In this document: piece after piece, positions 8,666 to 22,223 of the stretch
How the letters are laid out: each line of letters starts with the position of its first letter
Position numbering within the stretch: position 1 is the first letter of the stretch
From: a virus
Direction: 5' to 3' (one strand)
Length of the DNA: 24,042 nucleotides
IMG/VR virus record: IMGVR_UViG_3300020175_000053
Span: 1 to 24,042 of that record
The notes under the pieces: generated by a model
The model's input: the letters and a program-made list of their open reading frames with translations, nothing else
The model's database searches: none
What the model was told of the DNA's origin: nothing
Made by a program: the position numbers and the translations under genes

Positions 8666-10999
8666 ATGAGTAAAATTCTAGTCACTAAGCGAGATGGATC
8701 TCGCGAAGAGCTTAATATCGAAAAGCTACACAAGGTAGTTTTTGAAGCAACTGAAGGTGTTACTGGAGTTAGTCCGAGCGAAGTTGAAATTAAAAGTCAA
8801 ATTCAGTTTTACAATAATATTACCAGTAGTGAAATTCAAGAAACTTTAATTCGTGCTGCAGCTGAGCTTATTACTGAAGAAACTCCAAATTACCAATATG
8901 TAGCAGGCAGATTAATCAACTATCATTTGCGTAAGCAAGTATATAATCAATTTGTCCCAATACATGTTAAAGAACTAGTACAGCAAAATATCAATCTTGG
9001 CTACTATGATCCTGAACTCATTAACTACTACACAGACGAAGAATGGAATCGTATTGACAGTTTTATTAAACATGATCGTGACGAAACTCTTACTTATGTT
9101 GCAATGGAACAAATGCGTGGCAAGTATTTGGTACAAAACCGTGTCACAAAGCAAGTATACGAAACACCACAGATGTGTTATATTTTAATTGCAGCTACAC
9201 TGTTCCACAACGAACCAGTTGAAACTCGTTTACAAATCGTAAAGGAATATTATGATGCTATCAGTCTTCACGATATTAGTTTGCCTACTCCTGTTATGGC
9301 AGGTGTACGTACTCCACAGCGACAATTTTCTTCGTGTGTTCTTATTGAAGCTGATGATAGTCTTGATAGTATCAATGCCACTGTTAGTAGCGTTGTAAAG
9401 TATGTAAGCCAAAAAGCCGGTATTGGAATCGGCGCAGGCAGTATTCGTGCCATTAATTCACCTATTCGAAATGGTGATACAGCACATACTGGTGTGATTC
9501 CTTTTTATAGACTTTTCCAAAGTGCTGTAAAAAGTTGTAGCCAAGGTGGGGTCCGCGGAGGCGCAGCTACGTTGTATTATCCAGCATGGCATTTAGAAGT
9601 TGAAGATTTGCTAGTACTTAAAAACAATAAAGGCACTAACGAAACACGTATTCGTCAATTAGATTATGGTGTACAGTTTAATAAACTAATGTATGAACGT
9701 CTACTAACTGGCGGCAATATTACATTATTTTCGCCTAATGATGTTCCGGGCTTATACGAAGCTTTCTTTGCAGACCAGGACTTGTTTAAAGAACTATATG
9801 AACGTGCCGAACGAAATACTCGCATTAGAAAGAAAACAATTTCAGCAAAAGAACTGTTTAGTTCGTTTATGACTGAGCGCAAAGAAACAGGACGCATCTA
9901 TCTTCAAAACGTAGATCATGCTAACACACATAGTAGTTTTGATCAAAGCCTACATCCAATTCGCCAAAGGGGTTTGTGTGCAGAAATTGATCTACCAACA
10001 AAACCATTAAATGATTTTAATGATCCAGATGGGCGCATTGCACTATGTACGCTTAGTGCCGTTAACTGGGGAAACATCAAAACACCAGCAGACTTTGAAC
10101 GTCCGTGCAGACTAGCAATTCGAGGACTTGATGCACTACTGAGCTACCAAAACTACCCAGTTCTTGCTGCCAAAGAAAGTACTGAAGACTTCCGCCCGCT
10201 TGGTGTAGGTATTATCAACTTTGCCTATTGGCTAGCTAAAAATGATTTAAACTATACCAGTGATAATTCGCTCAACAAAGTAGATGAGTTTGCCGAAGCA
10301 TGGAGTTATTATTTAATACAAGCTAGTGCCGATTTAGCAGCCGAAAAAGGTGCTTGTAGACTCAGCGACGAAACAAAGTATGGACAAGGTATTGTACCAT
10401 GCGACACACGCAAAATAGAAGTTGATGAGCTAGTAAAACATAAAGAGCGCATGGACTGGAAAGGACTACGCAAACAACTGGCAATGACAGGCATTCGCAA
10501 TGCTACCACAATGGCACTTATGCCAAGTGAAACTAGTGCGCAAATTGCTAACGCTACCAATGGCATCGAGCCACCACGTAGTCTTATTAGTATTAAACAA
10601 AGCAAAGATGGTATTCTTAAACAAGTTGTTCCAGAGTATCGACGCTTAAAAAACAAGTACGAACTACTATGGGATCAACAGTCGCCGGAAGGTTATTTAA
10701 AAATTATGGCTGTTTTGCAAAAATGGATCGACCAAGGTATCAGTGTTAACACAAGTTATAACCCACAGTTTTTTGATGATGAAAAAATTCCAATGAGTGT
10801 TATGCTACAACATCTGGTTATGTTTTATAAATATGGCGGTAAACAATTGTACTACTTCAATACATTTGATGGCGCAGGCGAAGTAGATGTTGACAAGATG
10901 CAACAGGGCATGTTAAACTCTAATACTAACGACAAGACAATTGACGATTTCGAAACACAAGCAGAATACGACGACTATTGCGAAAGTTGCGTAATTTAA
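8666..10999 (+). CDS. nrdA: Class Ia ribonucleoside-diphosphate reductase, alpha subunit
   Basis: A full-length (777 aa) class Ia RNR large subunit that converts NDPs to dNDPs. The N-terminal ATP-cone is present (VTKRDGSREELNIEKLHKVV). Catalytic cysteines are C224 (FSSCVLIE), C438 (GLCAEIDLPTKP) and C461 (ALCTLSA), with E440 and the radical-transfer tyrosine pair in 'QLYYFNTFDG'. The C-terminal tail ends CESCVI, the thiol pair that re-reduces the active site. The residue equivalent to E. coli N437 is Gly436: the usual SNLC reads RGLC here, which is unusual. AAGGAAA precedes the ATG. It is first in the operon nrdA-nrdB-glutaredoxin. Confidence 0.97.
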   Translation: MSKILVTKRDGSREELNIEKLHKVVFEATEGVTGVSPSEVEIKSQIQFYNNITSSEIQETLIRAAAELITEETPNYQYVAGRLINYHLRKQVYNQFVPIHVKELVQQNINLGYYDPELINYYTDEEWNRIDSFIKHDRDETLTYVAMEQMRGKYLVQNRVTKQVYETPQMCYILIAATLFHNEPVETRLQIVKEYYDAISLHDISLPTPVMAGVRTPQRQFSSCVLIEADDSLDSINATVSSVVKYVSQKAGIGIGAGSIRAINSPIRNGDTAHTGVIPFYRLFQSAVKSCSQGGVRGGAATLYYPAWHLEVEDLLVLKNNKGTNETRIRQLDYGVQFNKLMYERLLTGGNITLFSPNDVPGLYEAFFADQDLFKELYERAERNTRIRKKTISAKELFSSFMTERKETGRIYLQNVDHANTHSSFDQSLHPIRQRGLCAEIDLPTKPLNDFNDPDGRIALCTLSAVNWGNIKTPADFERPCRLAIRGLDALLSYQNYPVLAAKESTEDFRPLGVGIINFAYWLAKNDLNYTSDNSLNKVDEFAEAWSYYLIQASADLAAEKGACRLSDETKYGQGIVPCDTRKIEVDELVKHKERMDWKGLRKQLAMTGIRNATTMALMPSETSAQIANATNGIEPPRSLISIKQSKDGILKQVVPEYRRLKNKYELLWDQQSPEGYLKIMAVLQKWIDQGISVNTSYNPQFFDDEKIPMSVMLQHLVMFYKYGGKQLYYFNTFDGAGEVDVDKMQQGMLNSNTNDKTIDDFETQAEYDDYCESCVI

Positions 11000-11015
11000 A
11001 AAGGAACATACATAC

Positions 11016-12143
11016 ATGAACGTTTTTGACGTTAACAATAAAGTAGATCACACTAAAGTAACAGCGTTCCTGGACCCTACTGGCGGTCCGACTATTCAAC
11101 GTTACGACACTATGAAGTATCCTAGCTTTGATAAATTTACAGATCAACAACTTGGTTTCTTTTGGAGACCAGAAGAAGTTGATGTATACCGTGATTCGAA
11201 AGACTTTAAAGCACTAACTGATCATGAGCAGCATATCTTTACATCAAATTTAAAACGTCAAATTCTATTGGATAGTGTACAAGGTCGTGCACCTGCAGAA
11301 AGCTTCGGTAACATTGTGAGTTTACCTGAACTTGAAAATTGGATTATTACTTGGACATTTAGTGAAACTATTCATAGTCGTAGTTACACACATATTATTC
11401 GCAATGTATACAGTAATCCAAGTGAGATCTTTGATGGTATGCTTGATATTCAAGAAATTGTAGATTGCGCTGATGACATTAGCAAGTATTACGATAAACT
11501 AATCGAACAGTCATATTGGTATAACTTGCTAGGCGAAGGCACACATACTGTTAACGGTAAGAAAGTTATTGTTGATTTATATGAGCTAAAGAAACTACTT
11601 TACCTGGCATTAATGAGTGTTAATATCCTCGAAGGTGTTCGTTTCTACGTTAGCTTTGCTTGTAGTTGGGCATTTGCTGAAGCAAAGAAAATGGAAGGCA
11701 ATGCTAAGATTATTAAGTTTATTGCTCGCGACGAAAATCTACACCTGGGCAGTACACAATTATTACTTAAAACTCTTCCTAAAGACGATCCAGACTTTAT
11801 TAAAATTGCAGAAGAAACAAAAGAAGAGTGTATCCAAATGTTTGTTGATGCCGTAGATCAAGAAAAAGCATGGGCGCATTACTTGTTCAAAGACGGTTCA
11901 ATGATTGGCCTAAACGAACAGTTGTTGGGCGACTATATTGAATATATTGCCAGCCGGCGTATGGAAAAAGTTGGTTTGTCTAAACTTTACAAAGTATCGC
12001 AAAATCCACTGCCGTGGACACAGAAATGGATTTCTGGAGCCGATGTTCAAGTTGCTCCGCAAGAAACTGAAATCACAAGCTATGTAAGTGGCGGTACCAA
12101 GCAAGATGTTAGCGAGGATACATTTAAAGGATTGAGTTTATGA
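11016..12143 (+). CDS. nrdB: Class Ia ribonucleotide reductase, beta subunit
   Basis: A 375-aa radical-generating small subunit. All diiron ligands and the radical tyrosine can be placed: D86 (LLDSVQGR), E117 and H120 (FSETIHSR), Y124 (SRSYTHIIRN), E206 (NILEGVRF), and E240 and H243 (IARDENLHL). Two iron atoms and a stable tyrosyl radical are therefore expected, as in E. coli NrdB. The C-terminus (EDTFKGLSL) is the peptide that docks on NrdA. AAAAAGGAAC lies upstream of the ATG, 16 nt after nrdA. The TGA overlaps the glutaredoxin ATG (12140). Confidence 0.97.
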   Translation: MNVFDVNNKVDHTKVTAFLDPTGGPTIQRYDTMKYPSFDKFTDQQLGFFWRPEEVDVYRDSKDFKALTDHEQHIFTSNLKRQILLDSVQGRAPAESFGNIVSLPELENWIITWTFSETIHSRSYTHIIRNVYSNPSEIFDGMLDIQEIVDCADDISKYYDKLIEQSYWYNLLGEGTHTVNGKKVIVDLYELKKLLYLALMSVNILEGVRFYVSFACSWAFAEAKKMEGNAKIIKFIARDENLHLGSTQLLLKTLPKDDPDFIKIAEETKEECIQMFVDAVDQEKAWAHYLFKDGSMIGLNEQLLGDYIEYIASRRMEKVGLSKLYKVSQNPLPWTQKWISGADVQVAPQETEITSYVSGGTKQDVSEDTFKGLSL

Positions 12144-12391
12144 TTGAAATTTATGGAAAACCTGCATGTCCGTATTGTGATCGAGCAAAATTGATCTGTG
12201 AACAGCGTAGTTTGCCATACCAGTATTTTCAACTTGGTACAGACTTTACTCGCGACGAATTACTCGAAATGTTTCCAACAGCACGTACTTTTCCGCAGAT
12301 TAAAGTAAGTGGAAAACCAATCGGTGGGTCAGAACAGTTAAGTAGTTACTTAGAGGAAACAAGTTATAACGGAACAGGATATGCGTTGTAA
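12140..12391 (+). CDS. Glutaredoxin, likely RNR electron donor
   Basis: An 83-aa glutaredoxin with the redox motif CPYC (C10, C13). The cis-proline segment is TFPQI, followed by the GSH-binding 'GKPIGGSEQL'. The size and fold are those of a classical small dithiol glutaredoxin. It is coupled to nrdB by ATGA, which fits a role in reducing the C-terminal cysteines of NrdA. T4 encodes the analogous donor as nrdC. The 3' end overlaps the next micro-gene as TAATG. Confidence 0.95.
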   Translation: MIEIYGKPACPYCDRAKLICEQRSLPYQYFQLGTDFTRDELLEMFPTARTFPQIKVSGKPIGGSEQLSSYLEETSYNGTGYAL

Positions 12392-12480
12392 TGGCATTAC
12401 GTAAGCCACGGGCAACCAAAACTAAAATGAAAGCTGCTGCTAAAAAAGCAACTAAAATTGGCAAAAAGAGAAAAAAATGA
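12391..12480 (+). CDS. 29-aa very basic micro-protein
   Basis: ATG 12391 overlaps the glutaredoxin stop (TAATG) and its own TGA overlaps the next start (ATGA at 12477), so this 29-codon frame is coupled on both sides. It encodes 11 Lys and 3 Arg with Ala/Thr spacers, starting MALRKPRATKTK and ending KIGKKRKK. The composition resembles histone-H1-like or nucleic-acid-binding tails. No acidic residues are present. Double coupling argues for real translation; the function is unknown and binding to DNA or RNA is inferred from charge. Confidence 0.6.
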   Translation: MALRKPRATKTKMKAAAKKATKIGKKRKK

Positions 12481-12788
12481 TCATTGAACAACCTATCAAA
12501 GAAAATACAACAGTAACAATTAAAACCACCAGCGGTGATGAAGTTGTTGCTCGTTATGTTAGCGAAGACAATAATACCATCACTATAACTAAACCATTAG
12601 CACTAGTTGCATCGCAACAAGGCATGGGATTAGCACCGTTTGCTTTTACAGTGCCTCTAGATGGCAAACTTAAAATATATAAAAGTGCTGTGATTTTTAT
12701 GGCAAAAACAGAAGACCAAATGGCAAGTCAATACATGACAAGTACCAGTGGCATTGCAACACCAAACTCATCATCGTTTAAAATTTAA
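12477..12788 (+). CDS. Small beta-rich protein, 103 aa (Sm/SH3-like barrel possible)
   Basis: A 103-aa protein whose first 75 residues alternate in strand-like fashion: 'TTVTIKTTSGDEVVARYVSE', then 'NTITITKPLALV', 'FAFTVPLDGKLKIYKSAVIF'. The order of short strands with a central G-D turn resembles Sm/Hfq- or SH3-like barrels. The C-terminal 25 residues are Ser/Thr-rich and probably flexible. No enzyme motif is visible. It is coupled to the Lys-rich micro-gene upstream. Comparable small proteins occur in T4-like marine phages (recalled). The fold call is tentative. Confidence 0.65.
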   Translation: MIIEQPIKENTTVTIKTTSGDEVVARYVSEDNNTITITKPLALVASQQGMGLAPFAFTVPLDGKLKIYKSAVIFMAKTEDQMASQYMTSTSGIATPNSSSFKI

Positions 12789-12903: not shown

Positions 12904-13542
12904 TTAAGCAGTTGGATACTGTGTCATTATTGTTAATGCAATTAACATGCTGTAGCGGTCCTTAGTTTTGCTTAAATTTCCGCCATCATGCCAAACATCA
13001 TTGTCGTTAACTTGCATCCATCCATCACCTAAATTAGTTGTACTCCTGGCATATTCTTTTTCGTCATTGTATGATCTAAAGAAATAAGTTGCTAGCTCTG
13101 GGTCATCTTGTGCGTTTAAACTAATGCCACCTGTGGCAGCTAGCAGCCTAAAATCAATGTGTCTGCCGCATTCAAAGCTTGGTTTATCTTCTGTAAACTC
13201 TCCATGGAAACTAGTATTTTTAATAAATGCATCCTTGGTCATGCCATAGTTGCCTCTAATGTTTGGGGATGTTTCAAACAAGTAATCAACTAAGTCGGCT
13301 TTGCTTTTTTCGAGATGAAAAAAGCTTTGCATTTCACGTAGCAGTTTGCTTTGTGGGTCTAGTATTTTAAAACGCAGCGGCCATATTTCATAACCAGTTG
13401 TGTTTGTTTCGCTAAACTTTCTCCATTTTTCATTTTTAAGTTCGCTTACTACTTCTTCGTGGCTGTAAGGAAAATTAAATTTTATACGGTAAAGTTGATG
13501 TTCTCGATGTTCAACTTCTAGACTGTAATTTTTATGATTCAT
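12904..13542 (-). CDS. 2OG-Fe(II)-oxygenase-like protein, 212 aa
   Basis: I chose the internal ATG at 13542 (MNHKNYSLEVEHREH); a longer frame to 13620 would run through the divergent gene's start and promoter. The C-terminal half carries the spacing of a 2-oxoglutarate/Fe(II) dioxygenase: H128-x-D130 (GRHIDFR), distal H185 (DVWHDGGN) and R196 (DRYSML) for 2OG. Position H to R is 11 residues and HxD to H is 55, both usual for the fold. The N-terminal 100 residues are not recognised. It is the only - strand gene. It has its own late-type box (13575-13582) and lies back-to-back with three radical SAM genes. The substrate is unknown. Confidence 0.72.
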   Translation of the reverse strand: MNHKNYSLEVEHREHQLYRIKFNFPYSHEEVVSELKNEKWRKFSETNTTGYEIWPLRFKILDPQSKLLREMQSFFHLEKSKADLVDYLFETSPNIRGNYGMTKDAFIKNTSFHGEFTEDKPSFECGRHIDFRLLAATGGISLNAQDDPELATYFFRSYNDEKEYARSTTNLGDGWMQVNDNDVWHDGGNLSKTKDRYSMLIALTIMTQYPTA

Positions 13543-13554
13543 AATAGTGCTTTC

Positions 13555-13562
13555 AATAAATA
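13555..13562 (+). promoter_or_regulatory. T4-type late promoter box (AATAAATA) for the radical SAM operon
   Basis: AATAAATA lies 25 nt before ATG 13588, in the 45-nt gap between divergent genes. A TATAAT (13567-13572) follows immediately. Confidence 0.55.
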
Positions 13563-13574
13563 CTGTTATAATGA

Positions 13575-13582
13575 TATTTATG
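13575..13582 (-). promoter_or_regulatory. T4-type late promoter box (CATAAATA) for the 2OG-oxygenase-like gene
   Basis: Read on the - strand the sequence is CATAAATA, 32 nt before the gene's ATG at 13542. It faces the + strand box only 12 nt away, so the two divergent units could be switched on together as late genes. Confidence 0.5.
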
Positions 13583-13587
13583 AACCA

Positions 13588-14802
13588 ATGAAAAACAATA
13601 CATGCATATTGGCAGAACAAGGGCTACATTTGCACAACAGCGGAAGATGCAACAGTTGTAGCGATAGTATAGCATACTGGACCGATGAACAAAACAATCC
13701 AATGGATCTAACTACACATTCTTTGGAACAAATTTGGAACAGCAAAAGCCGGCAGGATCTTGTTGCAGATCTTCGCAACGGTGTCGATAATCCAAGTTGC
13801 GAAAAGTGTTGGCAAAAAGAACGTGTGGGTATAGAAAGCAAAAGACAGATTAGTAACAGACAATGGCAACTAAGTGATAAACAGACACCGCAATATATTG
13901 ATTTAAAGTGGGGTAATGTTTGTAACTTAAAATGCCGGCACTGTAACCCTTGGACCAGCAGTAAGTGGTTAAAAGAATGGTACGCTGTAGAAAGAGATGG
14001 TGTACAAGATTATAGCGATTATGTTGCAGAATTTCAATCTACACAAAAAAGTTATCACCCAGACAACAAAGAAAACTTTCACAATACATTTAATCAATGG
14101 TTTGCTAACAGCACAAACATAATGCTGTATGGCGGCGAGGGTATGTATGTCAAGGATGTACAGCGTATGTTTAATTATGCGGTAGAAAACGGTAATAGCA
14201 AAAATATCGATGTTTACATCAATACCAATGGTACAATATACAGCGAAGAATGGATTGAGTTACTGGGGAATTTTCGCAGTGTAAGAATGGCATTTAGTAT
14301 TGACGGTGTTGGAGATAGTTTCGATTACATAAGGCACGGTGCCGATTGGAATACAGTTGTAAAAAACTTTAATCGATATAAACAAATAGAAAATATACAG
14401 GTAGATATTGTTGCTACTATTTTTACATTAAATGTTTACAATTGTGTCGATATGCTGTATAATATAAACAAGAGTATGAAAATGCCAATGGTTAATTTTG
14501 TATATGGCCCTGAATGGTGGGATATACGAGTACTACCAACAGATGTAAAACAACAAATATATAGCAAGAATAAACACGACTTAATGGCAAAACAATCTTC
14601 AATGTCGGAACATACGTTTGAAGTGTTACAGGAACAAGTTGACCAAATACAAAAGTTTTTGCTCGATGATGTAGATAATTCGTCAGCTAAGTATAAAGTA
14701 ATGAAGAACTGGGTTAAGTCTATAGATCAAAGTCGCAATGAAAACTTTAAAGATGGTTTTCCAGAATATAATAATTTAATTAAGGTATACAATGACTATT
14801 AA
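13588..14802 (+). CDS. Radical SAM protein 1 (twitch/SPASM-like), 404 aa
   Basis: The radical SAM CxxxCxxC motif is C112-C116-C119 (GNVCNLKCRHC), followed by a GGE motif (LYGGEGMY) and later core strands ('VYINTNGTIY', 'MAFSIDGVGDSFDYIRHG'). N-terminal to it lies an auxiliary cysteine region, C6, C21, C24, C71 and C74 (SGRCNSC ... PSCEKCW), of the twitch/SPASM type that usually binds a second iron-sulfur cluster. It begins at ATG 13588; a longer frame from 13534 would include the promoter. Phage proteins annotated as twitch-domain radical SAM are known but their substrates are not. The last 11 nt overlap the next gene. Confidence 0.88.
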   Translation: MKNNTCILAEQGLHLHNSGRCNSCSDSIAYWTDEQNNPMDLTTHSLEQIWNSKSRQDLVADLRNGVDNPSCEKCWQKERVGIESKRQISNRQWQLSDKQTPQYIDLKWGNVCNLKCRHCNPWTSSKWLKEWYAVERDGVQDYSDYVAEFQSTQKSYHPDNKENFHNTFNQWFANSTNIMLYGGEGMYVKDVQRMFNYAVENGNSKNIDVYINTNGTIYSEEWIELLGNFRSVRMAFSIDGVGDSFDYIRHGADWNTVVKNFNRYKQIENIQVDIVATIFTLNVYNCVDMLYNINKSMKMPMVNFVYGPEWWDIRVLPTDVKQQIYSKNKHDLMAKQSSMSEHTFEVLQEQVDQIQKFLLDDVDNSSAKYKVMKNWVKSIDQSRNENFKDGFPEYNNLIKVYNDY

Positions 14803-16078
14803 ACAAAGACCATTTCCAATAAAAACTGAAACCGCTTGTCAGCTAAAATGGAGTCACAGCACTGTTTTTCTAACTCAAAATAGGAGCAGTAGTTGTCATC
14901 GTGTTCAGGGTAACCAAATCGACGAAAGCTTTGATTTTCACAATACGCCTGACAAAATATCTGACCGAGAGAAAATGCTCAAAGGAGAATGGCCCGGCAG
15001 AGGATGCGAACATTGTAAAGATATTGAGGACGCAGGCGGAACAAGTGACAGAATGCTACACTTAAACTTTCCGGGACTGGGCGCTCCTCCTGAAGTTTTA
15101 GACGGAGATTTAACAGCAACAAAAGTTGCACCACGTTGGTTGGAAATTTATTTTAGTAACTTGTGTAATCTTAGTTGTTTGTACTGTGGTGAGCACTTTA
15201 GTAGTAGTTGGGAAAGTGAAAACAAAAAGTTTGGGCATATCGACGAAGCCATGGGCAGAGAAGCACCAAACACGAACTATACACAAAACTACAAAGACTT
15301 AAACTCAAAAATGTTTGATTGGCTAGATGAAAACGTCCATCACTTATATAACTTAATGATCTTAGGTGGCGAACCTTTTACACAACCGCAAAGTGATCAA
15401 CTGTTAGATTTTCTTGAAGCTAGGCATAATCCTAATTTAACATTAACATTTTTTAGTAACTTGAGTGTAGATCACGAGCGCATGAAAAAACGTTTTAATC
15501 GTATGCAAAAACTCAAAGATAATGGCCATTTAGCCGAAATTCATATTATTGGTAGTATTGATTGTTGGGGTCCCGAAATTGAATATATTCGTTCTGGATT
15601 AGACTTAGAATTGTTTGAGAAAAATTTTGAGTATCTAGTAAATGAAACAGATGTTCGCCTTGGAGTCAATGCTGCTTGGATGAGCCTATCAACATTTACA
15701 ATGCCTGATTTAATTAAAAAAATTAACAAATGGAGTACTCATCAGCGCCCGGTATTTTTCAGTTTAATGCAGGCAGCAGGCCAGAGATATGTGCATCCAG
15801 AAATATTTGGACCTAAAGTACTAGATTGGGGATATAGAGAAGCAGTTGAGTTATTTGAAACACAAGGCAATAATGTCAAAGAAGGTTACAAAACTTATCT
15901 TGAAGGTATTTTGAAAAAAATTGAAAATTCAGAACCAGACATTGAAGCACAACGTCAATTCCACAAATATCTAACAGTACTCGATGATCGCCGAAACACT
16001 GACTATAGAACTCTGTTTCCGGCAGTGTACACAGAAATACAAAAAACTCTGCAAATAAACAGTGAGCCCCATGGATGA
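14792..16078 (+). CDS. Radical SAM protein 2, 428 aa
   Basis: The radical SAM motif is C125-C129-C132 (SNLCNLSCLYC), followed by a GGE motif (MILGGEPFTQ) and the strand/loop 'HIIGSIDCWGPEIEYIRSGL'. Additional cysteines C16, C35, C72 and C75 (RGCEHC) precede the core, paralleling the other two proteins. The C-terminal third is helical. The gene overlaps the first radical SAM gene by 11 nt and the third by 8 nt, so the three form one translationally linked set. The substrate is unknown. Its resemblance to protein 1 suggests ancient duplication with strong divergence. Confidence 0.88.
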   Translation: MTIKQRPFPIKTETACQLKWSHSTVFLTQNRSSSCHRVQGNQIDESFDFHNTPDKISDREKMLKGEWPGRGCEHCKDIEDAGGTSDRMLHLNFPGLGAPPEVLDGDLTATKVAPRWLEIYFSNLCNLSCLYCGEHFSSSWESENKKFGHIDEAMGREAPNTNYTQNYKDLNSKMFDWLDENVHHLYNLMILGGEPFTQPQSDQLLDFLEARHNPNLTLTFFSNLSVDHERMKKRFNRMQKLKDNGHLAEIHIIGSIDCWGPEIEYIRSGLDLELFEKNFEYLVNETDVRLGVNAAWMSLSTFTMPDLIKKINKWSTHQRPVFFSLMQAAGQRYVHPEIFGPKVLDWGYREAVELFETQGNNVKEGYKTYLEGILKKIENSEPDIEAQRQFHKYLTVLDDRRNTDYRTLFPAVYTEIQKTLQINSEPHG

Positions 16079-17102
16079 GTTGCTATCGCATATACCCAAT
16101 GATAAAAAATGGCTTGCTGAAAACTTAATTGTAGACTTTGGTAAGCAAAAAAGTCTCAACTTGTTTTGTAAAGATCCATTTGATGGGTGTAGCATTGATC
16201 GCTTTGGTCAAGTGTTTGTTTGTACGTGCGATGGTAAGTTGCCTATTAGTGTTGGGCATATAACAGACTTTCAGTCATTGGAAGAAATTTGGATAAACGA
16301 CATTGCTAGACAACTACAGCAATCTATACTAGAGAAAAAGTTTACTTATTGCGATGTAAACAACTGCGGGATATTACACAACAATTCTAGTAATGCAGAC
16401 AGCTATTTTAGTAGCTCTCGTCGAAAAGAAATATTTCTAAACATTGATGAAAGCTGCAACTTACAGTGTCCTAGCTGCCGCGATACTATGATTTATATCA
16501 AAAACGGCAAAGAGTATACAGATAAAAAAGCATGGATGACTCATTTTCATGACATGCTAAAACAGTATAATGGCGCATTGGATCTTTATACTAGCGGTAA
16601 CGGTGATCCACTGGCTAGTGAAATATGCCATGAGTTTTTGCTCACATGTGAACTTAAAAACAATCAAAAATTTAATTTTCTCACAAACGGTTTGCTATTA
16701 AGACAGCGTTTCAGCGAGAATCCGTACTTGGTTAATAATACCAATTTGATTATGATAAGCATTGATGCTGGAAGCAAGGAAGTTTATGAGGATGTTAGGC
16801 GTCCTGGTAAATGGGAAAAGTTAATCGACAATCTAGATTGCTTGCACACACTGTCAAAACAAGGCATTGCTGCACAGTTGAATTTTGTAATACAACGTGC
16901 CAATTATCGTGACATTCCAAACTTTATTAATTTAGCAGAGAAATATGAATTTAGGACACACTATGCTTTACTAGAAGATTGGAGAACACTTGACGGCGGT
17001 TTTTACCAAAAAAATGCTGTGCACAACGAAAGTCATCCAGAATACCAAAATTGGTTAAATATTTACGATACATTTAAAGATAAAATTAATTTAGCTAGAT
17101 AA
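16071..17102 (+). CDS. Radical SAM protein 3 with N-terminal SPASM-like domain, 343 aa
   Basis: The radical SAM motif is C129-C133-C136 (DESCNLQCPSC). Residues 33-99 form a clear SPASM-like unit (FCKDPFDGCSIDRFGQVFVC, then SVGHITDFQSLEEIWIND) with C33, C40, C51, C53, C94 and C99. SPASM domains normally follow the radical SAM barrel; here the unit comes first. Instead of GGE the corresponding strand reads 'LYTSGNGDPL'. ATG 16071 overlaps the upstream stop; a GTG at 16062 is an alternative start. Anaerobic-maturase-type enzymes share this architecture, but the target is not shown by the sequence. Confidence 0.87.
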   Translation: MDELLSHIPNDKKWLAENLIVDFGKQKSLNLFCKDPFDGCSIDRFGQVFVCTCDGKLPISVGHITDFQSLEEIWINDIARQLQQSILEKKFTYCDVNNCGILHNNSSNADSYFSSSRRKEIFLNIDESCNLQCPSCRDTMIYIKNGKEYTDKKAWMTHFHDMLKQYNGALDLYTSGNGDPLASEICHEFLLTCELKNNQKFNFLTNGLLLRQRFSENPYLVNNTNLIMISIDAGSKEVYEDVRRPGKWEKLIDNLDCLHTLSKQGIAAQLNFVIQRANYRDIPNFINLAEKYEFRTHYALLEDWRTLDGGFYQKNAVHNESHPEYQNWLNIYDTFKDKINLAR

Positions 17103-17116
17103 CAAAGGATTTGCAC

Positions 17117-17389
17117 ATGGATATACTATCAAGATTATTTGACGATACATTATGGATTTACACAGCAATACTAGGCTCACTATTTGGTGCTGCATTCTTG
17201 GCATATGTAAGTACAACTCGCTTAGGTTTATGGGCTTATGCAAAAGTAGATAATACAGTAGATTTTTTAGTCGAACGTTGGGGATGGACTTGGTTACAGC
17301 AACCAGAAGATGCTTGGCGTAAAAAATATCCAAAAATTACTGATAAGATAGACAGTATTGAAGCAAGATTAAAAGAATTGGAAAAGTAA
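17117..17389 (+). CDS. Small membrane protein with C-terminal coiled coil, 90 aa
   Basis: A 90-aa protein. ATG 17117 follows AAAGGA by 7 nt; an in-frame TTG at 17111 is less likely. Residues about 10-32 are one TM segment (DTLWIYTAILGSLFGAAFLA). A W-rich amphipathic part follows, and the C-terminus (TDKIDSIEARLKELEK) is coiled-coil. It follows the third radical SAM gene by 14 nt and so is probably in the same operon. Its role is unknown; a membrane anchor or lysis accessory is possible. Confidence 0.7.
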   Translation: MDILSRLFDDTLWIYTAILGSLFGAAFLAYVSTTRLGLWAYAKVDNTVDFLVERWGWTWLQQPEDAWRKKYPKITDKIDSIEARLKELEK

Positions 17390-17390
17390 C

Positions 17391-17432
17391 ATGTCAGAAA
17401 TAGAAAAAATTGCTGTATTAGGCTACGACTAA
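17391..17432 (+). CDS. Possible 13-aa peptide ORF or gene remnant
   Basis: ATG 17391 comes 1 nt after the previous stop and opens 13 codons: MSEIEKIAVLGYD, then TAA. It could be a real leader or substrate peptide or the 5' stump of a deleted gene; the following non-coding stretch would fit a deletion. There is no direct evidence of translation beyond its tight spacing. Confidence 0.2.
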   Translation: MSEIEKIAVLGYD

Positions 17433-17622
17433 AGTACCTTAAATTGGCGTAAAAAGAAAAGCTTAAAAAACAGTATTGTAAGTTACTGTTTTTAAAAGAA
17501 AAAAATACCATAATTCTTAGTTAAATTCAAAATATTGGTTAAATTAACGATATAGTATCTTTACCAGCAAAAACTATTAAATATGCCTAAATGACGATTT
17601 AAGAGGCGTTTATGAATTCTGG
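17433..17622. other. Non-coding stretch before the tmRNA
   Basis: About 190 nt without a credible gene on either strand. It holds the terminator at 17465-17494 and two GTTAAATT repeats (17518-17525 and 17538-17545), the second within the near-palindrome GTTAA-A-TTAAC. No tRNA is seen here. Confidence 0.6.
17465..17494 (+). terminator. Rho-independent terminator of the radical SAM operon
   Basis: AAAAACAGTA and TACTGTTTTT pair as a 10-bp stem around an 8-nt loop with a T-tract. It ends the 13588-17432 transcription unit and isolates the tmRNA promoter. Confidence 0.8.
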
Positions 17623-17653
17623 TTGACATTATTAAGAAACTGTTATATAAATA
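17623..17653 (+). promoter_or_regulatory. Dual sigma70-type and T4-late-type promoter of the tmRNA
   Basis: A perfect -35 TTGACA (17623-17628) is followed by exactly 17 nt and TATAAA (17646-17651). The same bases extend to TATAAATA (17646-17653), the full T4 late consensus and the only perfect copy in the window. Both readings predict +1 near 17659, just before the first tmRNA hairpin. Confidence 0.75.
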
Positions 17654-17720
17654 TACTTGTAACGTTGAAGCAACGTAGACACATTCTGGACCTGGGGGCG
17701 GTACCCAGCAGCTCCACCAC

Positions 17721-17777
17721 AGATACACTACACCTCTGGGCAAACCCGGGGGGAACCTTGCAAGTTGTAGTGTATCT
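17721..17777 (+). repeat. Inverted repeat closing the tmRNA intervening segment
   Basis: AGATACACTACA (17721-17732) and TGTAGTGTATCT (17766-17777) are perfect 12-bp complements directly after the encoded CCA and just before the coding piece. The segment should be excised when the two tmRNA pieces mature. Confidence 0.9.
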
Positions 17778-17866
17778 TTGATGGGGCTGAAATAGGATCG
17801 ACAGGTGTGAAAGTGAAGTGGAGTTACCGGGATGTAAGCGCCGTACCGCGAACACAATTTCTAAAT

Positions 17867-17908
17867 GCAAACGCAAATAGAGCGCCAGAAATGGCATTAG
17901 CAGCCTAA
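17867..17908 (+). other. tmRNA proteolysis-tag reading frame
   Basis: Thirteen codons from GCA 17867 plus TAA encode ANANRAPEMALAA. With the alanine carried by the tmRNA itself the tag is A-ANANRAPEMALAA. The LAA terminus matches the degron of known SsrA tags such as AANDENYALAA of E. coli. Confidence 0.88.
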
Positions 17909-18011
17909 GGGTATGTGGGGGTTGGCAACTTACCTAGCAACAGAAAAGTTTGCACACACATTATAAAATACCCAACACATTTTGACTTTTAGAGCACGGA
18001 AGCCAATATAA

Positions 18012-18983
18012 ATGCAAGTAAATGTACTAACAGATCCAGAAATCGGGGGAACCTTTTTTTCGTGGAGTTTGTACTATCTAACAGGTCATAGTGATTATTA
18101 TCACACTCGTTCTGGAAGTATTAAACTGCTACCAAGTAATCCGTTGACTAAATTAAATAATGCACATGCATTTGAACCAAATCGCTATAACACGCCTGAA
18201 CAAGTTCGCAATATCACAATACCTCCAAGCCAAACTCGGCTAGATGTAATTTATCACCATACTGCAGCAACAACTGAGTTTACTTCTGATCAGATTCGAG
18301 ATACTGTTGATCATCTCATGTCAATGACAGATAAGAATATTATTATCACTAATAAAAATATAAGATTTTTTAGATTAACACAAGCTAGTAGGTCACAAGA
18401 CAAAACTTTTGACAAAGAAATTGGCAAAGAATTTATTCAACGTTGGTTTGATAAAAGTTATAAACAATGGAGCCAGGCTGCAGATATGTCCGACAGTTGG
18501 AATCTTCGAGAGTTTCTAGCACTAAATCTACAACCAGACACATCATTTGAAAGAATCACAGATTATATAACATCGTATGATAATACAGTGTACTACATTG
18601 ATATGAATCATGCATGGCATGCACTAGACGATGTTATGCATGACATAATTCCGTGGATGGGCTGGAAAGTTGACAATGAACGGTTTAACAAATGGTTAAA
18701 TGTGTACTATACGTGGCGAAATACGACTATGCAAAGATATAAGTTTCAATGGTACTTTGATGAAATAATCGAGGCAATACTTGAAAATAATTATATAAAT
18801 TTAAAACGTTTTGACTTAGACGTTGTACAGGAAAGTGTTATACTACACGAGCTGATATATAAACATAATTTGAATTTAGCAATGCATGGATTAGAACAAT
18901 TTGATAATACCCAGCAGTTGCATAGTCTATTAGAAGCCAATATTCATCCCTTGCCAATGGAAAAAATGAGAGTCAAAATATGA
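18012..18983 (+). CDS. Hypothetical protein, 323 aa, heading the Kdo operon
   Basis: A 323-aa soluble protein. It opens 'MQVNVLTDPEIGGTFFSWSL', a strand followed by a GG-T loop and a helix, which loosely recalls the phosphate-binding start of sulfotransferase-like P-loop folds. I cannot confirm this, and no second sulfotransferase motif is obvious. The rest is W/Y/H-rich and helical ('HAWHALDDVMHDIIPWMGW'). There is no TM segment. The start is preceded by CGGAAG. Its TGA overlaps the kdsA ATG (18980), so it is translationally coupled to Kdo synthesis and may act on the same sugar or surface structure. Confidence 0.65.
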   Translation: MQVNVLTDPEIGGTFFSWSLYYLTGHSDYYHTRSGSIKLLPSNPLTKLNNAHAFEPNRYNTPEQVRNITIPPSQTRLDVIYHHTAATTEFTSDQIRDTVDHLMSMTDKNIIITNKNIRFFRLTQASRSQDKTFDKEIGKEFIQRWFDKSYKQWSQAADMSDSWNLREFLALNLQPDTSFERITDYITSYDNTVYYIDMNHAWHALDDVMHDIIPWMGWKVDNERFNKWLNVYYTWRNTTMQRYKFQWYFDEIIEAILENNYINLKRFDLDVVQESVILHELIYKHNLNLAMHGLEQFDNTQQLHSLLEANIHPLPMEKMRVKI

Positions 18984-19768
18984 GAATTATTGCAGGACCT
19001 TGCCAACACGAATCATATGCACAAAGTTTAGAAATTGCAACAGAATGTAAACGTGTGTGCGACAAGTATGGCATCGAATACTACTTTAAAGCTAGCTACG
19101 ACAAAGCAAATCGTACAAGTGCTAACAGCAAACGTGGCCAAGGTATAGAATCAACACTTGCTGACTTTCTTGCATTAAAAGTAACACTAGGTGTAAAAAC
19201 ATTAACTGATGTACATGATGCTGTGCAAGTTAAACGTATTGAACAGCAATTTAAAGATGCAGTTGATGTTTATCAAATTCCTGCGTTTTTATGCAGACAA
19301 ACGGATCTTATCCAGGCAGCATGTGCTACAGATAAGATTGTAAATATTAAAAAAGGACAATTCCTAGCACCATGGGATGTCAAGGGCATTCTAAGTAAAA
19401 CCGAAGGCGATCGAGAAGTTTGGATAACAGAGAGAGGTACAAGTTTTGGCTATAATACCTTGGTTGTCGATTTCACTGGCATTCAGTACATGCTTGACAA
19501 TTATGACAATGTTGTGTTTGATGTCACTCACGCAGTACAAAAGCCAGGAGGACAAGGTGATAGCAGTGGGGGGAATAGGGATTATGTTCCAGGTCTTTGC
19601 AGGGCTGCTTCTGCTTTGGGTGTTTCTAACTTTTTCTTAGAGGTACACAAAGATCCAGACAATGCGCCTAGTGACGGTCCTAATATGCTACGATTAGAAG
19701 ATTTTGAGGATACAGTTAAACAAATCAAAGTCGTAAGTACTGCAGCAAATGGGTGGCACTGGCTATGA
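18980..19768 (+). CDS. kdsA: 3-deoxy-8-phosphooctulonate synthase (Kdo-8-P synthase), metal-dependent type
   Basis: A 262-aa enzyme joining phosphoenolpyruvate and arabinose 5-phosphate to make Kdo-8-phosphate. Family motifs run in order: AGPC (5-8), FKASYDKANRTS (36-47), TDVH (76-79), QIPAFLCRQTDL (99-110), NIKKGQF (122-128), ERGTSFGYN (151-159), DVTHAVQKPG (181-190) and FLEVHKDPDNAPSDGPN (219-235). C8, H184, E221 and D232 match the four metal ligands of the Aquifex enzyme, so this is the metal-dependent form, not the Asn-type of E. coli. It overlaps genes on both sides as ATGA. Confidence 0.95.
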   Translation: MRIIAGPCQHESYAQSLEIATECKRVCDKYGIEYYFKASYDKANRTSANSKRGQGIESTLADFLALKVTLGVKTLTDVHDAVQVKRIEQQFKDAVDVYQIPAFLCRQTDLIQAACATDKIVNIKKGQFLAPWDVKGILSKTEGDREVWITERGTSFGYNTLVVDFTGIQYMLDNYDNVVFDVTHAVQKPGGQGDSSGGNRDYVPGLCRAASALGVSNFFLEVHKDPDNAPSDGPNMLRLEDFEDTVKQIKVVSTAANGWHWL

Positions 19769-19926
19769 AAAAGAAAACGTGTGACGCATTTTTTTGTAAC
19801 AAGCAGACACCAAAAAAATTCCGTTACTGCTACGACTGTGCTAGAAATAAAGGATTAGTAGGCAGCAAAAATAATTGGGGAATGTGGGCAATATTAATAG
19901 TAATTGCATTGGTGGTATTTGGATGA
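19765..19926 (+). CDS. 53-aa zinc-ribbon plus TM micro-protein
   Basis: ATG 19765 overlaps the kdsA stop (ATGA) and its TGA (19924-19926) overlaps the kdsB ATG (19923), so it is coupled on both sides. Residues 6-25 carry two cysteine pairs (CDAFFC and CYDC), a likely zinc knuckle. Residues about 40-53 form a short TM helix (MWAILIVIALVVFG). The N-terminus is basic. It might tether the Kdo enzymes or the product pathway to the membrane; this is inference. No family name is known to me. Confidence 0.7.
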   Translation: MKKKTCDAFFCNKQTPKKFRYCYDCARNKGLVGSKNNWGMWAILIVIALVVFG

Positions 19927-20597
19927 AAACAGCAATATTAATTCCAGCAAGATACGGCAGCACACGCTTCCCCGGAAAGCCGTTGGCACTGTTAGATGGC
20001 ATTCCTATGATAAAGCGTGTGTATGACGCTTGTACAGCGTCTAAGATACCAACATATGTTCTCACAGACGACATGCGTATATACGAACTGTTTGGTCCTA
20101 ACAAGTGCTGGATTGAACAAATAGATTATGCTAACGGTACAGAACGGTGTGCTGGCGCAGTCAAGAACGATTTCTTTAAACAGTATGATCAGTTTATTAA
20201 TGTACAAGGCGATATGCCAGATGTAACAGTTGATATAATTCACAAGTGTATAGTTAGTCTTAATCAATACGAAGTAAGTACAGTGTACACCGAAATGACA
20301 AAAGAACTACAGAATGATCCTAACTCAGTTAAACTCATACGTTCAGATTGTAATGCTTTATGGTTTGGTAGAGGCATGACCGGATACGGCGATTGGCACT
20401 TAGGAGTATATGGGTATAGACGCAATGCATTATCTTTGTATAGCAACTTAGAAGTTACTCAAGAAGAACAAGTCGAACAACTTGAGCAACTACGTTGGTT
20501 AAAAAACGGTTGGAAAATCGGCGCACAGAGTGTATACTTTAATGGAGTAGAGATTAATACACCAGAAGATATGGAGAAATGGAATGATTGCAGGTAA
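19923..20597 (+). CDS. kdsB: 3-deoxy-manno-octulosonate cytidylyltransferase (CMP-Kdo synthetase)
   Basis: A 224-aa enzyme, slightly shorter than the usual roughly 245-250 aa, making CMP-Kdo from CTP and Kdo. Motifs are PARYGSTRFPGKPL (8-21) for CTP, NGTERCAGA (71-79), NVQGDMP (93-99) with metal-binding D97, 'WHLGVYGYRRNAL', and the C-terminal 'VEINTPEDMEKW'. The usual NVQGDEP has Met for Glu. I chose ATG 19923; a longer frame from 19875 would overlap the micro-gene. It feeds Kdo into lipopolysaccharide or capsule. The phosphatase KdsC that acts between KdsA and KdsB is not in the window. Confidence 0.93.
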   Translation: MKTAILIPARYGSTRFPGKPLALLDGIPMIKRVYDACTASKIPTYVLTDDMRIYELFGPNKCWIEQIDYANGTERCAGAVKNDFFKQYDQFINVQGDMPDVTVDIIHKCIVSLNQYEVSTVYTEMTKELQNDPNSVKLIRSDCNALWFGRGMTGYGDWHLGVYGYRRNALSLYSNLEVTQEEQVEQLEQLRWLKNGWKIGAQSVYFNGVEINTPEDMEKWNDCR

Positions 20598-20937
20598 AGT
20601 TTGGGGCAATACAGAACTAGTAGAAGCCAATGGAGCCTTAGAGTTTCATCGTATTGAAATGAATAAAGGTGGCGTATGCTCTAAACATCTCCACGAGTTT
20701 AAATGGAATGGGTTTTATGTTGAGTCAGGTCGCATGCTTATTCGTGTATGGCAGAAAGATTATGATTTAGTTGATGAGACTATTCTTGATCCTGGGATGT
20801 ATACAAAAGTAAAACCTGGTGTATATCATCAGTTTGAATGTCTTGATGATGGTGTTGCCTTTGAACTGTACTGGGCTGAGTTTAATCATAATGATATTAA
20901 ACGAGAGACTGTAGGTCATGCAGCAGGCACACTATGA
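20584..20937 (+). CDS. Cupin-domain protein, 117 aa
   Basis: A single-domain cupin. The first motif is 'GGVCSKHLHEFKWNGFYVES' with H-x-H and a later G. The second is 'PGMYTKVKPGVYHQFECLDD', with the PG and H of cupin motif 2. Small cupins of this kind include sugar-phosphate isomerase-like and sugar-nucleotide-modifying proteins. Given its 14-nt overlap with kdsB it may handle a sugar precursor. The specific reaction cannot be read from the sequence. Confidence 0.85.
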   Translation: MIAGKVWGNTELVEANGALEFHRIEMNKGGVCSKHLHEFKWNGFYVESGRMLIRVWQKDYDLVDETILDPGMYTKVKPGVYHQFECLDDGVAFELYWAEFNHNDIKRETVGHAAGTL

Positions 20938-21639: not shown

Positions 21640-21837
21640 ATGCAATCATATGATATAGACGGTTTAACCTACATGCAAATCGTAATGCTAGAACATATGC
21701 AAGAATTAGAAACTGCAAAAGAATGTTCAGATTTCATTAATAGTCTAACTCCATCACAACTTAAAATGGCTCGTTGTTTGCAAACATTGTTAAAGCAAAT
21801 ATATGCGGAAGTAGAAGAAAATTTGGAGGCAGTGTAA
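21640..21837 (+). CDS. Small hypothetical phage protein, 65 aa
   Basis: I chose ATG 21640 because GGAG (21630-21633) lies 6 nt upstream; the in-frame ATG at 21628 would place that site inside the gene. The 65-aa protein (MQSYDIDGLTYMQIVMLEHM...) is helical and acidic at its end. It has three internal Met and one CLQTLL segment. No domain is recognised. Its TAA overlaps the next ATG (TAATG). It is the first gene after an early promoter and probably an early host-takeover protein. Confidence 0.65.
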   Translation: MQSYDIDGLTYMQIVMLEHMQELETAKECSDFINSLTPSQLKMARCLQTLLKQIYAEVEENLEAV

Positions 21838-22223
21838 TGTCTATGCACTTGGTTGGTCCTTATATGACCACAACAAAGTATAATAAAAAGAAATCCAAAC
21901 GTAAAAAAACTGCCAAACAATTAAAAGCAGAAGCCGAACATGAAAAGTTTATGCGCAAGATGGGTGTAAGTCAAGAGCAACTTGAAGGTAAGTTGTACGA
22001 CAAGTATGGCAAACGAAAAAGTGTCAACGACCGCCCTGACTATAATACCGGTCCACGCATGACAAGTGATGTAATTGCAGGACATGGTGTAGCAAAAGAG
22101 TCTATGACTTATAGTGGCGAACGTAAACTTCTTGGTATTGCTACTATGCACAAAAGTAATATGGTTCCTATTTTTGCTGATAAGAAAGAAGATGCTAAAG
22201 ATATCGCAAGTATGCGGCGATAA
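21837..22223 (+). CDS. Conserved phage protein, 128 aa
   Basis: ATG 21837 is preceded by GGAGG. The first 35 residues are extremely basic (NKKKSKRKKTAKQLKAEAEH). The end 'LLGIATMHKSNMVPIFADKK' plus 'DIASMRR' is a signature I recall in many cyanophage/pelagiphage proteins (GIGTMHKSN-VPVF). This is recognised from memory; the function is unknown. The basic head and conserved C-terminal tail suggest nucleic-acid binding. It is coupled to the 65-aa gene by TAATG. Confidence 0.72.
   Translation: MSMHLVGPYMTTTKYNKKKSKRKKTAKQLKAEAEHEKFMRKMGVSQEQLEGKLYDKYGKRKSVNDRPDYNTGPRMTSDVIAGHGVAKESMTYSGERKLLGIATMHKSNMVPIFADKKEDAKDIASMRR

Follow-up and report, generated by a model that had tools for sequence, protein, structure and literature searches.

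The stretch of DNA analysed here, which we call the window, is a 24,042-base virus record carrying one tmRNA gene on the plus strand. Searches with cmscan against Rfam matched RF01849 (alpha_tmRNA) with 117 bits at 17625-17954, against a gathering cut-off of 50 bits, and RF04321 (tmRNA_permuted) with 114.7 bits at 17659-17908, against a cut-off of 47 bits, and ARAGORN called a permuted tmRNA at 17625-17999 with the tag ANANRAPEMALAA. Together, these confirm 17625-17999 as a circularly permuted two-piece tmRNA gene. An earlier note, made from the letters alone, had described an acceptor piece, a hairpin and a coding piece in permuted order, with G3-U70, CCA and a tag, and all of these base-level claims agree with the sequence, with the alpha_tmRNA model and with the tmRNA finder. 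The gene runs from a promoter through the acceptor piece with its CCA and a hairpin insert to the coding piece with its tag frame, and its parts and neighbouring landmarks, all on the plus strand, are as follows.

8666-12391, plus: nrdA-nrdB-glutaredoxin block (open reading frames), the syntenic upstream landmark
12477-12788, plus: phrog_527 protein (PHROG match), last conserved gene before a variable zone
17623-17628, plus: -35 element TTGACA
17646-17653, plus: TATAAATA, a sigma70 -10 (TATAAA) overlapping a T4-late-type element
17659-17719, plus: acceptor piece, the 3' half of the tRNA-like domain with the CCA end (RF04321 from 17659; ARAGORN)
17692-17708, plus: T arm, stem 17692-17696/17704-17708, loop GGCGGTA
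17709-17715, plus: acceptor stem 3' strand CAGCTCC, holding U70 of G3.U70 and pairing with 17783-17789
17717-17719, plus: CCA closing the acceptor piece
17720-17782, plus: intervening segment, a long hairpin (inverted repeat 17709-17735/17763-17789; -28 kcal/mol)
17783-17789, plus: acceptor stem 5' strand GGGGCTG, start of the coding piece (covariation with 17709-17715)
17867-17908, plus: tag reading frame ANANRAPEMALAA with stop TAA (ARAGORN)
17909-17973, plus: 3' part of the coding piece, closed by GGGTAT 17909-17914/ATACCC 17968-17973 (inverted repeat; RF01849 to 17954), a probable pseudoknot region
21834-22223, plus: phrog_27048 protein (PHROG match), conserved downstream gene

The window RNA thus combines the marks of a two-piece tmRNA, namely the model score, an acceptor stem formed between the pieces, the CCA, the G3.U70 pair of alanine identity, and a hydrophobic degron followed by a stop. 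By analogy with known two-piece tmRNAs, the intervening segment at 17720-17782 would be cut out on maturation. The window RNA is more stably folded than shuffled versions of itself (z = -2.1), and the paired regions are under evident constraint in relatives. The acceptor stem, which is formed by strands of the two pieces, showed zero non-standard pairs across 59 distinct relatives, with compensatory changes at pairs 4, 5, and 6 (three or four pair types each) and G3.U70 invariant in all 59. The five T-arm pairs likewise held no non-standard pair in these relatives and showed compensatory changes at pairs 1-3.

The wider family was defined by its tag pattern, ANxNxAPEMAxAA (hereafter APEM), which was found in at least 119 viral contigs, as was the 20-base start of the coding piece. 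The window promoter departs from the sigma70 pattern (TTGACA, 16-18 bp, TATAAT-like) only in the last T of the -10, so that 11 of 12 positions agree, and it also matches the T4-late-type motif, with TATAAATA ending six nucleotides before the RNA start at 17659 modelled by RF04321. TTGACA-N17-NATAAATA lies directly 5' of the acceptor piece in 51 of 66 distinct APEM loci. Of the 52 loci that could be aligned, 50 keep a spacing of exactly 17 bp, while the spacer sequence is only 36% identical and the upstream flank 39%. Judged by this conservation, the composite promoter that the earlier note had read in the window is real and conserved. The octamer is absent from about 11 of the 66 loci, several of which retain the -35 with a TATAACTATA-type -10, so late use would not be universal. 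At the same place in 50 other phage tmRNAs, we found the late-type element alone in 11, a sigma70-like -10 in 18 (5 with a -35), and the composite promoter in 7.

Within the window alone, TATAAATA is not enriched (3 found vs 3.85 expected), so the promoter claim exceeds chance only through the comparative data, and the description of the gene as lying among late-promoter genes is not borne out there. In a set of thirteen clade records to which the window belongs, lone TATAAATA sites and TTGAC-TATAAT promoters are both common; the composite is rare and sits mostly at the tmRNA, and some sites labelled "other" in this survey are in fact tmRNA starts overlooked or wrongly placed by ARAGORN. Upstream of open reading frames clade-wide, ATAAATA was the top sense-biased motif, with TTGACA also among the top ones, and TATAAATA occurred 65 times in sense vs 15 in antisense (p = 1.4e-8; composite sites excluded).

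The octamer probably lets a phage late factor keep tmRNA transcription on. That this factor is a late sigma we only infer, since searches of the core clade with phrog_234, phrog_12791, a T4-like profile, and Atu_ph07 gp694 gave no gp55 homologue; gp46 and gp47 homologues were not found in the core clade either, and a gp55-type late sigma was found only in three T4-like contigs (G003, G004, and G013), the window being a fragment. The promoter may instead be purely sigma70, with TATAAA as its -10, an incidental likeness to T4 late elements and use by host RNA polymerase only, a reading we regard as possible but on the doubtful side. The fixed 17-bp spacing of TTGACA is a sigma70 requirement, some loci of the APEM clade carry nothing but a sigma70-like element, and the lack of a recognisable gp55 points the same way. 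However, ten clade records hold 36 TTGAC-N-TATAAT sites, so TATAAT was available and the tmRNA nevertheless retains the full octamer; the clade's strongest upstream motif is ATAAATA with no -35; and the 11 other phage tmRNAs with the late-type element alone carry it at the same place.

Downstream of this promoter, relatives conserve the resume codon, the tag frame with its stop, and the ALAA-type end. These are features that a decoy would not need, and it is very unlikely that the phage tmRNA is mainly a decoy or inhibitor of host tmRNA in place of a working tagger, although PMC11915505 mentions that expression in E. coli of a CDS-less tmRNA-like RNA from phage DS6A inhibits the endogenous tmRNA. 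The tag itself is close to phage-exclusive. Only 2 of 84,980 species genomes contained the APEM pattern, both in phage stretches inside MAGs, one assigned to Rickettsiales (L126, PALK01000009.1) and one to Neomarinimicrobiota (L125, PBPT01000016.1), where phage stretches had been binned; both stretches carry phage genes also present in the APEM clade, and one of the two contigs is also an IMG/VR entry (L207). Such binned stretches would mislead a search for the tag's host. Tags of the sampled alphaproteobacteria include ANDNRAPVALAA and ANDNEMALAA. The AN start and LAA-type end are common to alphaproteobacterial and phage tags, and APEM was not seen in hosts.

A FastTree phylogeny of 140 tmRNAs placed all 106 phage sequences in one group, apart from 34 sampled alphaproteobacterial hosts (support 0.91), with the nearest sampled host 0.88 substitutions per site away and the nearest phage 0.07; because the alignment covers only ~150 positions and the host sample is not known to include SAR11, we take this tree as supportive, not final. 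Relative to those 34 hosts, the window tmRNA does not group with a host lineage, as a recently host-derived alphaproteobacterial ssrA would.

Gene order provides a further line of evidence. Of 28 eligible APEM contigs, 16-17 have the nrdA-nrdB-glutaredoxin block and the phrog_527 gene upstream of the tmRNA; among 10 other tmRNA phages, no more than 2 show this arrangement. The phrog_27048 gene follows the tmRNA in 18 of 35 eligible relatives. A variable cargo zone separates phrog_527 from the tmRNA and spans 232-5495 nt in relatives and 4837 nt in the window, where three consecutive radical-SAM genes, one with SPASM, occupy 13534-17102. On the other side of the tmRNA, a 323-aa open reading frame (window 18012-18983) had no Pfam, PHROG, or viral relative, and KDO-8-phosphate synthase-like (DAHP_synth_1), cytidylyltransferase, and cupin genes at 18980-20937 suggest phage surface sugar synthesis. 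This synteny with nrdA-nrdB-grx argues for an old phage gene and not for a recent host transfer or a chimera. As to the phages themselves, a near relative of 155 kb (G001) encodes UvsX, UvsY, a clamp loader, a replicative helicase, and a head maturation protease, and the exonuclease-nrdA-nrdB order is also found in GAP32, from which the clade looks distantly related to RaK2-like and T4-like phages; the T4-like major capsid (Gp23) is absent from the near relatives G001 and G002 and present in the T4-like G003 and G004.

The earlier note had proposed capture of the gene from an alphaproteobacterial host, and although two-piece tmRNAs are typical of Alphaproteobacteria and the Melnitz tmRNA has been argued to be related to SAR11 (PMC9004378), we reject as highly improbable both a recent capture of host ssrA and its false joining to phage DNA in a chimeric assembly, on synteny (both flanks recur in independent contigs, which strongly opposes a chimera), on a tag distribution confined to phage stretches, and on a tree in which the phage tmRNAs form their own clade. 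These comparisons place the tmRNA in an old lineage that is confined to phages and has a tag of its own.

Taken together, we consider it likely that the locus encodes a functional two-piece tmRNA of a marine tailed phage, vertically inherited, that rescues ribosomes and tags their products from a promoter used both early and late. We base this on the anatomy, the covariation, the conservation of promoter and tag, and the synteny, all observed directly. Processing, charging, SmpB use, timing, and degradation are its predicted parts. The composite promoter would yield a single precursor starting near 17658, with its TTGACA/TATAAA reading permitting host RNA polymerase to transcribe it early. Once the intervening hairpin is cut out, an acceptor piece and a coding piece would remain, joined by acceptor stem pairing, and G3.U70 would direct alanine charging. 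With host SmpB, the tmRNA would enter ribosomes stalled on broken mRNA and add ANANRAPEMALAA to the unfinished protein, freeing the ribosome, and the ALAA end, as a degron, may then direct the product to ClpXP of the host or, in relatives that encode one, of the phage. No SmpB was found in the 13 contigs searched, so host SmpB would have to serve. The most likely benefit would be that ribosomes are kept free while host mRNA is cut and that broken products are disposed of.

Several relatives encode proteases that would fit such a degron. ClpX equivalogs above the NCBIfam cut-off occurred in 7 of 30 APEM contigs vs 0 of 22 other tmRNA contigs (G008, G009, G018, G001, G020, G023, and G032, of L160, L182, L225, L065, L235, L178, and L183), and ClpP exceeded its cut-off in 5 APEM contigs and narrowly missed it in a sixth, vs 0 of 22 others above it, in a comparison of contig fragments of unequal length whose counts ignore kinship. 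ClpA-like ATPases were present in several APEM contigs, some of them recognised from their size and match, and three contigs (G008, G009, and G018) hold tmRNA, ClpX, and ClpP together. The ClpX RKH-loop motif is present in G001 and altered in G008 and G009, and the window's 24 kb holds no clp genes. Elsewhere, Atu_ph07 has seven Clp proteins (PMC6102473), and the Sinorhizobium jumbo phage AP-J-162 carries Clp genes plus a tmRNA (PMC11242549). It is conceivable, if rather unlikely, that this lineage runs its own tag-and-degrade pathway, with a private tag, an early and late composite promoter, and, in part of the lineage, phage ClpX, ClpP, and ClpA suited to the tag; if so, proteolysis during infection would shift from host to phage control.

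Two-piece tmRNAs have been published from phages before, 53 of 133 unique phage tmRNAs being of this kind and 50 of those 53 coming from marine or aquatic phages (PMC9004378), so the kind is known and the window gene is a further member with distinct features. New here are the phage-only APEM tag, the conserved composite promoter, the covariation, and the nrdA-nrdB-grx synteny. The Methylophilales phage Melnitz and related marine myophages likewise carry a complete permuted alphaproteobacterial-type ssrA, although that of Melnitz has a glutamine riboswitch and an early promoter (PMC9004378), whereas the window tmRNA has the composite promoter, and no such riboswitch was detected in window 17380-18040 at E up to 1. 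Alphaproteobacterial ssrA (RF01849, e.g., Caulobacter) shares the permuted order, G3.U70, CCA, AN tag start, and LAA-type degron, but the host acceptor piece has a CUAUGG..AUAAACG segment that the phage piece does not, and sampled bacterial genomes score 143-313 bits with RF01849 vs 117 for the window. By DNA similarity and Rfam, roseophage DSS3_MAL1 and Sinorhizobium phage Phosso also have a permuted tmRNA in a large phage; the tag of DSS3_MAL1 is different (ANTNAAPMEMAIAA), and the composite promoter was not seen there. T4 and cyanophage late promoters use the same octamer, TATAAATA, which in this clade is sense-biased upstream of open reading frames, but the window octamer differs in having a TTGACA -35 at 17 bp and in belonging to a clade with no recognisable gp55.

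A phage-only tag, a promoter that unites early-type and late-type signals, and Clp genes in relatives make the reason for a phage tmRNA testable, through concrete questions such as which proteins get the APEMALAA tag, when, and which protease degrades them. Tag and promoter also form a sequence signature by which a large clade of uncultured marine phages can be tracked.

Finally, some tmRNAs depart from the standard architecture. Relatives tagged with ANANRAPEMAIAA or ANDNYAPEMAIAA have an insert of ~0.5-0.9 kb that splits the acceptor piece immediately past the T loop (L189, L148, L162, L185, L188, L190, L204, L231, L236; G007 near 29714, minus strand; L233/G015 near 18391). A second, different acceptor piece and a coding piece come after the insert, and the composite promoter is still found ahead of the locus. 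This looks like invasion by a mobile element. The insert in G007 has a 250-aa open reading frame that is GIY-YIG-like by eye alone, an assignment that neither Pfam nor PHROGs confirmed for the frame interrupting the tmRNA in L189 and relatives. In Phosso (L004, PV764938.1), a permuted tmRNA missing from the annotation lies at 1030-1632 (Rfam 113 bits), and its intervening segment is very long. In L225/G018, near 57649 on the minus strand, a 264-nt intervening segment contains a 77-aa open reading frame.
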